DNA of 38,511 bases from Cytophagaceae bacterium (GTDB taxonomy: Bacteria; Bacteroidota; Bacteroidia; Cytophagales; Spirosomataceae): contig CANFWR010000009.1 of the NCBI GenBank assembly GCA_947450865.1, forward strand, positions 1 to 38,511. The letters are read 5' to 3'. The notes beneath the pieces were generated by a model, which saw only the letters and a program-made list of their open reading frames with translations, ran no database searches and was not told the DNA's origin. Made by a program: the position numbers and the translations under genes. Below, piece by piece: positions 5,213 to 9,361 of the stretch (its first letter is position 1; every line of letters starts with the position of its first letter).

Positions 5213-5701
5213 ATGAACCCACATTTTCCAGCCTTCAAAAGGATCATTACGAATCCGGTATTATTCAAGTTTTTTGTTTTCCAAAAACTATCATCAGCCT
5301 TCTGGGCTGGTCTATCGATGGCTCATTTCGATGAAGAATCGTGTGGGGTTCGCGTGAAGCTTTCGTGGTTTAATCAGAATCCGTTTCGATCCATGTATTT
5401 CGCGGTAGAGGCGATGGCGGCGGAAATGAGTTGTGGGATGTTGGCTTTTGGACAGGTATACAAACGCCAGCCGGCGGTGAGTATGCTAGTCGAAAAACTC
5501 GAGGCGAAGTTCGTTAAGAAGGCAACAGGGGTAATTATTTTTACCTGCGCCGATGGCGCTGCAATACGAGATACCGTGAATGAAGCTTTGCAAAACCCAG
5601 CGGGAACAAAACTCCAAGTGACCTCGATTGGCCGAAATCAAGCGGGAGAGATTGTGGCTGAATTTTACTTTACGTGGACCTTTAAGGCGAAAAATTTATA
5701 G
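5213..5701 (+). CDS. DUF4442 domain-containing protein (hotdog thioesterase-like)
   Basis: This is a protein of 162 residues from the chosen ATG at 5213; an earlier in-frame ATG at 5171 lies inside the GH3 terminator. The sequence has the DUF4442 pattern: SAFWAGLSMAHFDEESCGVRVKLSW, then NPFRSMYFAVEAMAAEMSCG, then FVKKATGVIIFTCADG. DUF4442 is a hotdog-fold family thought to hold thioesterase-like proteins, but the substrate is unknown. Cytoplasmic, with no signal peptide. The last 6 bases overlap the convergent outer-membrane-like gene. Confidence 0.85.
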   Translation: MNPHFPAFKRIITNPVLFKFFVFQKLSSAFWAGLSMAHFDEESCGVRVKLSWFNQNPFRSMYFAVEAMAAEMSCGMLAFGQVYKRQPAVSMLVEKLEAKFVKKATGVIIFTCADGAAIRDTVNEALQNPAGTKLQVTSIGRNQAGEIVAEFYFTWTFKAKNL

Positions 5702-6328
5702 GTTGTATTTCAGTCCCACTGTAGCAATAACTTGTCCATCTGTAATAGTATAATTGCCAAAGGCTTTGGCTTGAAAATGAGAATTGATATCATACGAAAT
5801 CGTCTCCGCTACTCCGGTTAAATCTCCCACAGATAAATAATATCCCTGTGATAAAAATCCCCAGTTCTTGTGGCGATAATTCGTGTTACCTGAAATCAAC
5901 GTTACTTTAAAATCTGTATTTCGGGCTTGGCCATTCAGGATAAATGAACCGATACTCATCTTTTTGCTAACTGGATAATTCAATGTTAACTCCCGGCCAA
6001 AGAAACTCGTAACCTCGTAATTCTCTGTCATTTGAAAAGCCGGCATGTGGATTCCAAGGATGGCCTTGAATTTTTTATCAATAAACTTATAACGCGTAAT
6101 CAAAACCACAGTCGTAGGCGTCATACTCTTCATGCGCATCATATACATCAAATTCCCAGTAACTCTTCTCTTAGGATTTGTCCCCGCATTGATGATTAAA
6201 TTAGGCTCTTTCGAGGTAAATGCAGGGATGAAGGAGAATCCTCCAGTGCTCATTTCGATACTTCCTGTTTGCGCTTTTAGTGTGCTGGTCGCAAATATGA
6301 TAAAGCAAAGCGTTATAAATTGTTTCAT
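5696..6328 (-). CDS. Small exported beta-barrel-like protein, function unknown
   Basis: This 210-residue protein starts with a signal peptide (MKQFITLCFIIFATSTLKAQ). The mature part is rich in alternating polar and hydrophobic strands and ends in VGLKYNL, a pattern seen in outer-membrane barrels. I recognise no named family. No lipobox and no internal helix is visible. It is a single gene with a candidate -7 promoter element 29 bases upstream and overlaps the DUF4442 gene tail to tail by 6 bases. The outer-membrane location is inferred. Confidence 0.75.
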   Translation of the reverse strand: MKQFITLCFIIFATSTLKAQTGSIEMSTGGFSFIPAFTSKEPNLIINAGTNPKRRVTGNLMYMMRMKSMTPTTVVLITRYKFIDKKFKAILGIHMPAFQMTENYEVTSFFGRELTLNYPVSKKMSIGSFILNGQARNTDFKVTLISGNTNYRHKNWGFLSQGYYLSVGDLTGVAETISYDINSHFQAKAFGNYTITDGQVIATVGLKYNL

Positions 6329-6356
6329 TTTGATACATTAGGGTTAAAAACCGGTG

Positions 6357-6364
6357 CAAAGGTA
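6357..6364 (-). promoter_or_regulatory. Bacteroidota -7 element (TACCTTTG) for the small barrel protein
   Basis: TACCTTTG on the minus strand fits TAnnTTTG and lies 29 bases before the ATG at 6328. No clear -33 TTG was found at the expected distance. Confidence 0.5.
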
Positions 6365-6413
6365 CGCTTTTTCTTTCTGAAAACATCCTATGGGTTTTTT
6401 CAGTTAGTATTTT

Positions 6414-7865
6414 ATGGCCTCATCGAATAGTTATTTCCTAATTTTCCCACATCTATTGTTTGAGGAAACCCTCGCTCAAGAAGCGGCTATTTTCTATGTC
6501 GTTGAATCTGATTTATTCTTCAAACAATACGCCTTTCACAAACAAAAAATACTCTTCCACCGGGCTTCGATGCGTGCCTTTGCAGATCGACTTCGTGCGG
6601 CTGTTAAAACGGTAGAATACATCGATGCGCAAGATCCGCGCGCTTCGGAAGTTGAGCTGGTTTCTTCCATCGAAGGCCCCATTTCGCTGTTTGACCCAAA
6701 TGATTATCTACTGGAACGCAGGTTACGTCGCGCAGGTAATATTCACTTATTAGCAAGCCCAAACTTCCTCAATACCGACACCGCACTGCTCGGTACACGC
6801 AAGCCTTATTTTCAAACGGCCTTTTATACCCAGCAGCGAAAAGACCGTGGAATTCTACTCGAGGACGACGGGAAGCCGATGGGCGGCCAATGGACTTTTG
6901 ATGCGGATAACCGCAAGAAAATTCCGAAGAATACATTCATCCCAGCACAGTTTCCAGAGGCTGTTCCAAACGAATATATCCTGGAGGCGATAGACTATGT
7001 TACTGCCAATTTCTCGGACAATCCAGGTTCTTTAGATCGCCCATTTTCGGGAGCTTATTACCCCGTGACGCACGCGGAAGCACAGGCCGCTTTGGATCAA
7101 TTCATCCAGGAACGGATGCCGCTTTTTGGTGATTATGAAGACGCCATTAAGGCGCAAGAAAAGACTTTATTTCACAGTATTTTAAGTCCACTAATTAATG
7201 TGGGATTACTAAATCCGGCGCAGGTGATCAAACGCGTCGCGACTTCGAATGCCCCCTTAAACAGTGTGGAAGGCTTCATTCGCCAGGTCGTAGGTTGGCG
7301 GGAATTTGTGCAGTTATTATATCGAAAAATCGGGGTACAACAGCGTACCACGAATTATTGGGGATTTACGAAAGAGATGCCAGCTGCCTTTTATACGGGT
7401 ACAACAGGGGTCGAACCGATCGACCAAACGATTCGCAAGCTATTAAAAACAGGTTATAGCCATCACATTGAACGCCTAATGGTGCTGGGGAATTTTATGT
7501 TATTGTGCGAAATTAAACCCGATGCGGTTTATCGCTGGTTCATGGAACTGTACATCGATGCGTACGATTGGGTGATGGTGCCTAATATTTATGGGATGTC
7601 GCAATTCAGCGATGGTGGTTTGATGACTACGAAACCCTACATCTGTGGCTCGAATTACATCTTGAAAATGAGTGATTACCTGAAGGGTGAATGGCAGGAG
7701 ATTTGGGATGGTTTGTTTTGGCGATTCTTAGATAAACAGCGTGAAACGTTTCGTAAAAATCCGCGGTGGGCGATGCTGATCAGTACTTGGGACAAGATGC
7801 CTTTGGAAAAAAGAGAGGCTCACCTAAGCCGAGCTGAAGCTTATTTAGCTCAATTGTCTGCTTAA
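6414..7865 (+). CDS. Cryptochrome/photolyase family protein, PhrB (prokaryotic 6-4)-like
   Basis: This 483-residue flavoprotein belongs to the deoxyribodipyrimidine photolyase-related branch whose type member, Agrobacterium PhrB, repairs 6-4 photoproducts. The N-terminal alpha/beta domain (FLIFPHLLFEE, FYVVESDLFFKQYAFHKQKI) is followed by the helical FAD domain with VEGFIRQVVGWREFVQLLY, TGYSHHIERLMVLGNFMLLCE, VMVPNIYGMSQFSDGGLMTTKPYICGSNY and IWDGLFWRFL. Only two Cys exist (365 and 411). The cysteine-rich loop holding most [4Fe-4S] ligands in PhrB is replaced by KMSDYLKGEWQEIWDGLFW, so the cluster is probably absent. The 3' end overlaps the convergent FAD-domain gene by 21 bases. Repair or signalling cannot be told apart from sequence. 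Confidence 0.92.
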   Translation: MASSNSYFLIFPHLLFEETLAQEAAIFYVVESDLFFKQYAFHKQKILFHRASMRAFADRLRAAVKTVEYIDAQDPRASEVELVSSIEGPISLFDPNDYLLERRLRRAGNIHLLASPNFLNTDTALLGTRKPYFQTAFYTQQRKDRGILLEDDGKPMGGQWTFDADNRKKIPKNTFIPAQFPEAVPNEYILEAIDYVTANFSDNPGSLDRPFSGAYYPVTHAEAQAALDQFIQERMPLFGDYEDAIKAQEKTLFHSILSPLINVGLLNPAQVIKRVATSNAPLNSVEGFIRQVVGWREFVQLLYRKIGVQQRTTNYWGFTKEMPAAFYTGTTGVEPIDQTIRKLLKTGYSHHIERLMVLGNFMLLCEIKPDAVYRWFMELYIDAYDWVMVPNIYGMSQFSDGGLMTTKPYICGSNYILKMSDYLKGEWQEIWDGLFWRFLDKQRETFRKNPRWAMLISTWDKMPLEKREAHLSRAEAYLAQLSA

Positions 7866-8921
7866 TTTATTCCAAAACGAAAAGAAGCTATTGAACTCCC
7901 CTTGCAAGCCGGGCGCTAAACTTGGATGCACTTCCCGAACACCTTGAAAATGGGCATTGATCGGGTGATCACGGAAAATACCTTTCAAATTAAGGTCTGC
8001 ATATTCCCCATAATAGACTTGAATTCCCGCTATATTTTCAGCAAGTGATAGGATGAATTCGATAGTCTTAGGGGCCATCGGATGTTTGGCAAAATGACTC
8101 GGTTCTAAAACCAAAATTCGATTGCCCATTTCCCCTTCATGAAAAGTAGGATCCAATGTGTAATAGGTGTAGATGAAAGTGGGAATATCAGGCAGAATCT
8201 CTAGAGGCTGCGTAACCGGTGCAGTAAAAACAAGCTCCGCTTCCACCGATTTAGAAAGATGATCAGGAACAGGTTGCGAAGGCAAATCCTCGTAATCAAA
8301 ATCCAAGAAAGTCCCTCTTTGCTGACTACCGGTATAACGATTGATGTTCTCCTGATTCGCGTAATACAGCTTATTACTAAACGTCCCGGCGCACCATTGC
8401 CAACTCAGCGCATTGCTCGCTAAATCGCCGTCCAACAAATGGTAATACATCCACTGAGCAGGTTCTAACCAATGGTATTTGGCCACATTACAAATCGTCG
8501 CAGCAAGGTACATGCGCAGGTGATTATGTAGATATCCTGTTGTGGGGAAATTCTTTAATGCCCCATCTAAAGCTTGAATGCCTGTTGTAGATTCTAACAC
8601 CGCACGAGGGATTCCAAAACGCTCAATGCCCTCTTGCGGATGGCGAATATCGTCAAAGATAGCATCGCCCTTTTGAAACCAAGTACGCGTATAAAACTCG
8701 CGCCAAGCTAATTCTTGGATGAATTTTTCCGCTTGTTCTAAACCGATTCCACGATCCTTTAATCGTTTGACGACTTGGGGAACCGTGATAAAACCGCGGG
8801 ATAAATAGGGGGATAAATAAGAGACTCCGCCGGTAAGGAAGTTGCGCGAACGAGCGTATTTATCTACGTCAAACCGATCGATTTGCGCTAGTATTTCTTC
8901 GCGTTTTGTCGAAAACTTCAT
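7845..8921 (-). CDS. Photolyase FAD-binding domain protein without N-terminal antenna domain; C-terminal alpha/beta domain
   Basis: This 358-residue protein opens directly with the photolyase helical FAD domain (residues 1 to about 225): YARSRNFLTGGVSYLSPYLSRG, FIQELAWREFYTR, TGYLHNHLRMYLAA and NALSWQWCAGTFSNKLYY. The Rossmann-like domain that precedes it in canonical photolyases is missing. Instead residues about 240-358 form another domain with RILVLEPSHFAKHP, a helix, GIQVYYGEY and finally GEFNSFFSFWNKL, which recalls the FTPFW end of the normal N-terminal domain and suggests a circular permutation (inference). The start overlaps the TIGR03643 stop as TAATG, so the two are translationally coupled. 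Proteins of this layout occur in other Bacteroidota but I know of no characterised one. Confidence 0.88.
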   Translation of the reverse strand: MKFSTKREEILAQIDRFDVDKYARSRNFLTGGVSYLSPYLSRGFITVPQVVKRLKDRGIGLEQAEKFIQELAWREFYTRTWFQKGDAIFDDIRHPQEGIERFGIPRAVLESTTGIQALDGALKNFPTTGYLHNHLRMYLAATICNVAKYHWLEPAQWMYYHLLDGDLASNALSWQWCAGTFSNKLYYANQENINRYTGSQQRGTFLDFDYEDLPSQPVPDHLSKSVEAELVFTAPVTQPLEILPDIPTFIYTYYTLDPTFHEGEMGNRILVLEPSHFAKHPMAPKTIEFILSLAENIAGIQVYYGEYADLNLKGIFRDHPINAHFQGVREVHPSLAPGLQGEFNSFFSFWNKLSRQLS

Positions 8922-9217
8922 TAGCGCTTGCTGATTTTATTCAGGCTGATGCTGCGTTGCAGCGTGCATTTGAAACGTGGATCTACAGCCACGCGTTTTT
9001 GCAGATGTTTAGTGCCGCGTCCAGTCATTCGCTTGCGCCACATCCGGAAACTCGACTCCTTACTATTCAGACGCATGAATTCAATGACCTCTTTTTCCTT
9101 TAGGCCAAACTGAAACTCGATCGCCTCAAAAGGCGTGCGATCTTCCCAGGCCATTTGGATAATGCGGTCAATATCTTCGTCCGAAAACTTATTTGCTACG
9201 TCTACACTTTTCACCAC
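8921..9217 (-). CDS. TIGR03643 family protein
   Basis: This is a 98-residue basic protein of unknown function. The diagnostic core is FSDEDIDRIIQMAWEDRTPFEAIEFQFGLKEKEVIEFMR, which looks like a small helix-turn-helix-type fold, followed by a Lys/Arg-rich tail (MWRKRMTGRGTKH). The start is GTG at 9217 (a second GTG follows at once) because no ATG lies before the core, which places it 29 bases inside the DUF2256 gene in another frame. The stop overlaps the FAD-domain gene start by one base. From memory, this family often sits near photolyase/cryptochrome genes, in line with the arrangement here. A DNA- or RNA-binding partner role is only a guess. Confidence 0.82.
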   Translation of the reverse strand: MVKSVDVANKFSDEDIDRIIQMAWEDRTPFEAIEFQFGLKEKEVIEFMRLNSKESSFRMWRKRMTGRGTKHLQKRVAVDPRFKCTLQRSISLNKISKR

Positions 9218-9326
9218 AATAGATGATTTGGTCCCAATTCTTCTCCCACTTCTTGCGCCAGGCGAAAGGGCGATTACAGACAGGGCAGATTTTGGAGGGT
9301 AAATGTTGTTTTTTAACGCCTTGCAT
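9189..9326 (-). CDS. DUF2256 small zinc-ribbon protein
   Basis: This short gene encodes 45 residues. It has KICPVCNRPFAWRKKW followed by WDQIIYCGEKCR, i.e. Cys pairs C-x2-C and C-x3-C, which are expected to bind one zinc ion, as in DUF2256. It overlaps the downstream TIGR03643 gene by 29 bases in a different frame, so the two are almost certainly cotranscribed. The ATG lies directly after the T-tract of a terminator hairpin, leaving no leader of its own. The role is unknown; the neighbouring photolyase-type gene suggests a function in light-dependent repair or signalling. Confidence 0.85.
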   Translation of the reverse strand: MQGVKKQHLPSKICPVCNRPFAWRKKWEKNWDQIIYCGEKCRRSK

Positions 9327-9361
9327 AAAAAAGGGCTTGCCTATTAAAGACAAACCCTTTT
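9327..9361 (-). terminator. Intrinsic terminator after the DinB-like gene, abutting the DUF2256 start codon
   Basis: On the minus strand AAAAGGGTTTG (9361-9351) pairs with CAAGCCCTTTT (9339-9329), with one G-T wobble and an 11-base loop, followed by T residues. The next base begins the ATG of DUF2256. The stem also has an A/T frame that could work in both directions. Confidence 0.8.

Follow-up and report, generated by a model that had tools for sequence, protein, structure and literature searches.

A probable inverted-order photolyase of the Bacteroidota, with its FAD domain first and a photolyase-like alpha/beta domain last

Class I cyclobutane pyrimidine dimer (CPD) photolyases are built from an alpha/beta domain followed by a flavin adenine dinucleotide (FAD) domain. 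The window analysed here, a stretch of 38,511 nucleotides of contig CANFWR010000009.1 from a Cytophagaceae bacterium (assembly GCA_947450865.1), encodes at positions 7845-8921 a photolyase-type protein that seems to carry the two domains the other way round. The question that this locus raises is whether the order is truly reversed and whether the last domain is the photolyase alpha/beta domain. We consider it likely that the protein belongs to a Bacteroidota branch of the inverted-order photolyases (the kind known as NewPHL or short photolyase-like (SPL) proteins and as Phr4/5/6), with a catalytic FAD domain first and a trimmed photolyase alpha/beta domain last. This reading is supported by the domain order, the predicted folds, a two-step homology of the C-terminal domain and the retained active site.

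Domain order and fold of the two halves

In the 358-residue protein, Pfam detected FAD_binding_7 alone (residues 67-188, E 8.3e-20). The PF00875 (DNA_photolyase) and PF04244 (DPRP) domains were not matched in Pfam, and the C-terminal 138 residues had no Pfam or NCBIfam match at E up to 1. With phmmer, residues 11-187 aligned to residues 208-395 of E. coli photolyase. AlphaFold2 predicted the whole chain from an alignment of 29 sequences with a predicted local distance difference test score (pLDDT) of 95.0 and a predicted template modelling score (pTM) of 0.91. In a VIA structure search, the rows for this whole model span the FAD half, and residues 1-220 aligned to residues 195-463 of the E. 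coli photolyase chain (Z 15.8, root-mean-square deviation (rmsd) 3.0). Since the FAD domain is aligned from residue 1, an alpha/beta domain cannot precede it. Each half of the protein matches the photolyase fold separately, and the alignments follow the chain order; a circular permutation in the strict sense, with both halves at their classical places in space, is a possible form of the reversal. An unnamed PHROGs family, phrog_25969, matches the FAD half (residues 14-181), and no PHROGs family matches the C-terminal domain.

An earlier note on this DNA had observed that the protein starts with the photolyase FAD domain and lacks the N-terminal alpha/beta domain, and had suggested that it may be circularly permuted, with the canonical order reversed. 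The sequence stretches that it quoted are present in the protein, and the reversed order agrees with the Pfam and VIA results, which place the FAD domain in residues 1-220 and a photolyase-like alpha/beta domain last. We also looked for an FAD-domain protein with an intact N-terminal alpha/beta domain that matches the whole chain more closely, and none was found in the searches made. No solved structure matched both halves of the inverted photolyase, either with the Bacteroidota profile (44 matches at E up to 1e-5) or with the inverted protein of Ruegeria (7 matches at E up to 1e-10). A truncated class I gene was rejected as an explanation because the whole chain is conserved in relatives.

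The last 117 residues folded alone by AlphaFold2 gave a pLDDT of 92.5 and a pTM of 0.77, with the order strand, strand, two helices, strand, short helix, strand, strand and terminal helix. The VIA search with this model returned 414 chains with Z of at least 2, and the figures given here come from the best 50 of the 414. Photolyase N-terminal domains rank first. The top match is Rhodobacter CryB (Z 7.0), aligned only to residue 92, and the Caulobacter and Agrobacterium (6-4) photolyases (Z 6.7 each) are aligned to residue 117. For E. coli photolyase (1dnp), model residues 4-117 are aligned to chain residues 1-162 (Z 5.9, 113 residues). Rows less than 1 Z apart count as tied, and a Z of about 7 is within the range given for models without a clear match. 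The photolyase/cryptochrome fold accounts for 33 of the 50 rows, 32 of which are aligned to residue 117. In three of these 32 rows (ranks 10, 13 and 35; rmsd 6.0-6.1) the alignment ends at chain residue 296, so the last helix is placed elsewhere; the other 29 have no aberrant end. The remaining 17 rows stop at residues 90-104, and seven of them are titled universal stress proteins. Superposition on photolyase N-terminal domains, which the earlier note had proposed as a check, puts photolyases first, and only photolyase-fold chains reach the final helix. The 33 rows include 7pua_Ff, a trypanosome mitoribosome assembly protein, counted as photolyase-fold because it also matches the FAD half. This protein (PDB 7pub_Ff / 7pua_Ff) matches both photolyase-fold halves, with Z of 15.3 and 5.6.

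In classical photolyases the FTPF segment comes after the alpha/beta domain, and in E. coli photolyase the motif occupies residues 150-153. If the last helix is aligned gap-free, F346-F-S-F349 of the window protein would fall on this motif in the model, where the alignment ranges give end points only.

Sequence profiles connect the C-terminal domain to the classical one in two steps, through a bridge profile of five split or Deinococcus alpha/beta domains. In hhalign, the profile of 108 Bacteroidota C-terminal domains matched the bridge end to end over 103 columns (score 29.5, probability 41%, E 2.8e-4), and column shuffles never scored as high (0/100 and 0/400, top 21.4). The bridge in turn matched the classical N-terminal domains, from which the partial L127 and L128 had been dropped, over 125 columns (score 41.8, probability 88%, E 3.3e-6; 0/50 shuffles as high) and the alphaproteobacterial C-terminal domain over 44 columns (score 24.8; 0/50 shuffles as high). 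Negative controls against FAD-domain profiles scored 12.6-17.7. The homology of the C-terminal domain to the classical alpha/beta domain is therefore a two-step link resting on fold and profile together, and we grade it as good, not strong. The VIA ranking and the profiles both support the resemblance that the earlier note had seen.

The bridge is supplied by FAD-first photolyases on Deinococcus plasmids and in one genome of the same phylum (G462). Their alpha/beta domain is fused C-terminally in L116, L120 and L122 and forms a separate, overlapping open reading frame (ORF) in L114 and L159. Deinococcus sp. QL22 has an FAD ORF and a 173-residue ORF. In L159 (953-2187, minus strand), from the same-phylum genome, a Cys-bearing FAD ORF overlaps a 148-residue alpha/beta ORF, a layout as in the cyanobacterial Phr4/Phr5 pair. 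PF00875 was detected in the second ORF of L114 (E 2.3e-4) and in L120 (7.2e-4), both under the curated cut-off. In a search of 72,556 plasmid records (E up to 0.01), the 148-residue ORF matched four records, all from Deinococcus. Among 395 genomes of the phylum it matched its own genome only, as itself and as a weak match (E 1.4e-5) inside a 479-residue frame.

Active site, known families and the FAD-domain tree

Residues are compared here in E. coli photolyase numbering, with the CPD-site and Trp-chain roles assigned to them in that enzyme. Across the 108 aligned Bacteroidota sequences, the CPD-site equivalents are kept (E274 in 100/108, W277 in 108/108, N341 in 108/108, M345 in 101/108 and W384 in 108/108), as are W359 (107/108), N378 (108/108) and W382 (108/108). 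The Trp triad W382-W359-W306 is incomplete: W174 and W151 are present in the window protein and the W306 position, that of the third electron-chain Trp, is deleted. This deletion is found in 108/108 sequences, with a Trp anywhere in that stretch in six, and W157 is Trp in 108/108. The Fe-S type Phr4/6 identity was rejected because the four cysteines are absent: each of the four Fe-S columns has Cys in 0/108 Bacteroidota sequences. Deinococcus/split rows have Cys in 5, 5, 5 and 4 of 5 at these columns; of six alphaproteobacterial rows, a single one carries a Cys, and this at the first column alone.

The E. coli Arg beside the CPD-site Asn, R342, corresponds to residue 134 (8520-8522) of the window protein. 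This position is His in 108/108 Bacteroidota, 5/5 Deinococcus/split and 5/6 alphaproteobacterial rows, and Arg in 12/12 class I rows. The change to His, seen in 118/119 inverted or split rows, is a possible class signature.

The residue pattern is consistent with a CPD photolyase whose route of reduction has changed, and the window protein probably repairs CPDs, judging from its sequence. The protein would bind FAD, which is reduced to FADH- and absorbs blue or near-UV light; an electron would then pass to a CPD flipped into the FAD pocket, the dimer would be split and the electron regained. As the third Trp is deleted, reduction would have to use another outer donor (the invariant W157 is a candidate) or a flavin reductase, whose gene lies close by in some relatives. 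A probable role of the C-terminal domain is to cap or brace the FAD domain. Its antenna role may have been lost, since the domain is short and has no helix between the fourth and fifth strands. By analogy with published NewPHLs, a preference for single-stranded DNA may carry over.

The NewPHL or SPL proteins reportedly go back to Emmerich 2020 and Xu 2021. The window protein resembles them in its N-terminal FAD domain, the missing N-terminal alpha/beta domain and the further C-terminal domain. Six alphaproteobacterial homologues, likely of the same group, also have W306 deleted (6/6) and R342 changed to His (5/6). The Bacteroidota proteins differ from these homologues in length (about 360 against 388-410 residues), and, as regards the Z-domain type of the NewPHL C-terminus, their C-terminal domain does not match that of the alphaproteobacteria in a direct profile comparison and connects with it only by way of the split/Deinococcus domains. 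They share with Phr4/Phr5/Phr6 the order of FAD domain then alpha/beta domain, and the split pair of the same-phylum genome has the same layout, but the Fe-S cysteines of that kind, present in most Deinococcus/split rows, are missing from them. The class I CPD photolyases have the FAD domain and CPD-site residues in common with the window protein, but they have the opposite order, keep the third Trp (12/12) and lie on the other side of the tree. PhrB, the prokaryotic (6-4) photolyase with the DPRP domain, is distantly similar in its FAD domain and is encoded at the same locus; however, it has an N-terminal DPRP domain in conventional order and a far branch.

The accessible parts of several papers bear on these comparisons. 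Phr4/Phr5 and Phr6 of marine picocyanobacteria are described with reverse domain order, the former as an FAD domain and then a photolyase alpha/beta domain in two genes and the latter fused, and the four Fe-S cluster cysteines are reported in this kind (mBio 2022, PMC9426592). In the same partial text, Phr7 has an FAD domain and a C-terminal Z-domain and acts on single-stranded DNA (PMC9426592). NewPHLs or SPLs are described with inverted topology and activity on CPDs in single-stranded DNA (AEM 2026, PMC13274461), in a paper that also names the characterised NewPHLs UniProt A8LJA9 and M7YZC8. Excerpts elsewhere present SPLs as lacking the N-terminal domain and possibly ancestral (PMC9649867), as a possible origin of the photolyase family (PMC9498864) and as one of eight groups (PMC9178010). 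The earlier note had called the reversal a notable evolutionary event. The reversal stands but is not new, as the order is already in print in the parts available (PMC9426592, PMC13274461), which limits the surprise of the finding. The present analysis adds the two-step homology and the single change on the tree, together with the split-pair bridge and the gene neighbourhood. A literature search for photolyase and circular permutation gave nothing on the subject by title or start of abstract, and papers found for inverted photolyase and Bacteroidetes were unrelated by title.

The FAD-domain tree was built from 22 Bacteroidota inverted rows (of 108), 6 alphaproteobacterial, 3 Deinococcus fused, 2 split and 27 conventional rows; 11 of the 21 fetched class I rows were used, and the PhrB-like row of L058 was dropped. 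One branch separates the 33 inverted or split rows from the 27 conventional ones (100/100, in 100% of 200 bootstrap trees), and the domain order changes once. The Bacteroidota rows fall on the same side as the alphaproteobacterial, Deinococcus and split rows, in a tree that is without the characterised NewPHLs of D. shibae and M. mesophilicum.

Weighing the alternatives

Several results weigh against an inverted photolyase with the old alpha/beta domain at its end. The comparison set is without characterised NewPHL sequences, and with six PhrB-like (DPRP) outgroup rows the support of the inverted clade falls to 90/60, where long branches meet. When built from no more than 29 and 4 sequences, the bridge comparison scored 16.0, under a negative control of 20.0, and L116, one of three Deinococcus proteins tested, has no PF00875 match. 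Directly compared, the Bacteroidota and alphaproteobacterial C-terminal domains scored 11.55, with 37/100 shuffles as high. The direct comparison with the classical N-terminal domain also fails (12.75, 49/100 shuffles as high with 108 sequences; likewise undetected with 29). Shuffled classical profiles reached 29.55 (1/100) and 31.1 (1/200), so in a wider sense the bridge score of 29.5 lies within the reach of chance. Among structures, the Z values for the C-terminal domain are modest, and the best unrelated fold, the universal stress proteins, reaches 5.8, about 1 Z unit below the photolyase domains. Foldseek with the C-terminal domain had no photolyase among the 50 matches listed (best E 0.055), and a hidden Markov model (HMM) of the domain gave five weak matches to PDB sequences at E up to 10, none of them a photolyase. 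The structure scores, these missed searches and the profile results against the classical domain would favour an unrelated Rossmann-like domain of the universal-stress-protein type, gained by fusion, whose likeness to photolyases is convergent. We regard such an origin as improbable, because each of the 32 rows that extend to residue 117 has the photolyase fold, with no aberrant end in 29 of them, and because the end-to-end profile match (0/500 shuffles as high) is to split/Deinococcus domains that themselves match the classical domain. Slightly less credible still is a degenerate or cryptochrome-like member without DNA repair, serving as a light sensor or flavin store. The loss of the third electron-chain Trp in every sequence and the adjoining small partner genes of unknown role would suit it, whereas the kept equivalents of E274, W277, N341, M345 and W384 and a neighbourhood common to other photolyases in many relatives argue for repair. 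We take the last domain to be, most likely, the alpha/beta domain of photolyases, which suggests that the extra C-terminal domain of the Bacteroidota reversed photolyases is the old domain at the other end of the chain and not a new one.

As far as FAD-domain sequences indicate, the reversed order most likely arose once, in a direction that depends on the root. It may have come about by separation of the two domains and their re-joining in the opposite order; split gene pairs occur within the inverted clade. These split pairs would also suit two independent fusions, in which FAD and alpha/beta domains that were separate early were joined in opposite orders, with no permutation of a single chain. 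The split phr4/phr5 and fused phr6 genes reported in the available part of PMC9426592 point the same way, as does the view of a short photolyase at the origin of the family, given in the accessible text of papers citing Xu 2021 (PMC9649867, PMC9498864). However, the PhrB-type outgroup also has an N-terminal alpha/beta domain, and under that root, at the weak support given above, the inverted order is the derived one. We see two fusions as a serious but less favoured possibility. The mapping of the reversed order to a single branch of the FAD tree bears on whether the ancestral photolyase was of the short or split kind.

The locus and its relatives

Table 1. Features of the photolyase locus in the window
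Feature	Positions	Strand	Evidence
Inverted-order photolyase gene, 358 residues from ATG	7845..8921	-	ORF; Pfam FAD_binding_7 sole match; predicted fold
FAD/DNA-binding domain, N-terminal, residues 1-220	8262..8921	-	VIA against E. coli photolyase 195-463, Z 15.8; phmmer
Linker between FAD and alpha/beta domains, residues 221-246	8184..8261	-	Limits by eye from secondary structure; residues between 216 and 247 free of listed helices and strands
C-terminal alpha/beta domain, residues 247-345	7887..8183	-	AlphaFold2 alone, pLDDT 92.5; VIA ranking of photolyase N-terminal domains; hhalign match with the split and Deinococcus alpha/beta domains
Final helix with the FFSFW motif (residues 346-357), which may correspond to the classical FTPF segment	7851..7886	-	Helix in models; alignment range; conservation
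DUF2805/TIGR03643 protein, directly upstream of the photolyase gene	8921..9217	-	Pfam PF10985, E 7.1e-33; TIGR03643
Small Cys-rich DUF2256 protein whose gene overlaps that of DUF2805; alternative in-frame ATG start at 9326	9189..9353	-	PF10013, E 1.7e-21; ORF
PhrB-type photolyase (DPRP and FAD domains), ordinary domain order, convergent	6414..7865	+	PF04244, E 9e-41; PF03441, E 9.8e-8

The DUF2256, DUF2805 and photolyase genes overlap in series on the minus strand, the stop of the DUF2805 gene overlapping the photolyase start (TAATG). The PhrB-like gene converges from the other side, and its 3' end overlaps that of the inverted photolyase gene by 21 bases. The source assembly (2.38 Mb, 91% complete) has three FAD_binding_7 proteins: a conventional photolyase on another contig, the inverted photolyase and its PhrB-like neighbour.

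A scan of genome contigs confirmed 584 relatives, of which the best 80 were kept. Their neighbours, within the stretch of DNA covered at each locus, include a PhrB-like gene (42 loci), DUF2256 (39), DUF2805 (36), another photolyase (26) and flavin reductase (19). DUF2805 lies upstream on the same strand in 36/36 loci that have the gene. At least one of these neighbours occurs in 68/80 loci, and in 39 of the 44 loci whose DNA extends nearly 5 kb or further to each side. A flavin reductase was identified in L006 (PF01613), and the ORF list of the window shows none next to the photolyase. A search on DUF2256 gave no paper on photolyases, judging by titles. The neighbourhood may fairly be taken to suggest a co-operating repair island, and DUF2256, DUF2805 and the flavin reductase are testable partners. 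A bolder and rather unlikely proposal is that DUF2256, DUF2805 and the inverted photolyase have co-evolved, together with the reductase and one or two further photolyases, into a light-repair system of several parts. The inverted enzyme would have given up its antenna and outer Trp, DUF2256, DUF2805 and the reductase would be dedicated partners for reduction or damaged-DNA hand-over, and the order would reflect a fused ancient two-gene photolyase.

Of 194 genomes sampled from the same order, 29 have a full-length copy, a count that includes the source genome; the other 28 copies are 41-62% identical. A copy was found in 17/296 phylum genomes, again including the source genome; the G338 copy is in two pieces in one open frame. 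The 108 aligned sequences are these 29 and 79 of the 80 loci, after dropping the partial L102. Mean column identity is 54% in the C-terminal part and 59% in the whole protein; within the SFFSFW motif, F346 and W350 are invariant (108/108). As the C-terminal part is kept across relatives, the domain is not chance sequence. No relative was found in viral contigs, where 18 stretches fit a pattern and none was confirmed.

Prokaryotic (6-4) photolyases usually have an Fe-S cysteine cluster. The PhrB-like neighbour (6414-7865, plus strand) and five further PhrB-like genes of Bacteroidota that adjoin inverted photolyases are without it; among the seven rows compared, that of L058 (Pedobacter sp. Leaf170) has a Cys cluster at that place. 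Two close relatives encode an extra 487-residue photolyase beside the PhrB-like gene (L033, 7493-8956, minus strand; L035, about 6248-7507, minus strand), whose best NCBIfam match is crypto_DASH, under the cut-off. The counterpart region of the window (about 5700-6414) is without it. The alphaproteobacterial inverted photolyases of L118, L119 and L181 lie beside or near a DUF3429 gene. Among the best 80 loci, L063 and L064 are titled uncultured bacterium or bacterium only, and L045 is titled Rhodobacteraceae; the others carry names that we take to be Bacteroidota taxa. The L045 copy is of the Bacteroidota type (47% identical), which may reflect mis-binning or transfer.

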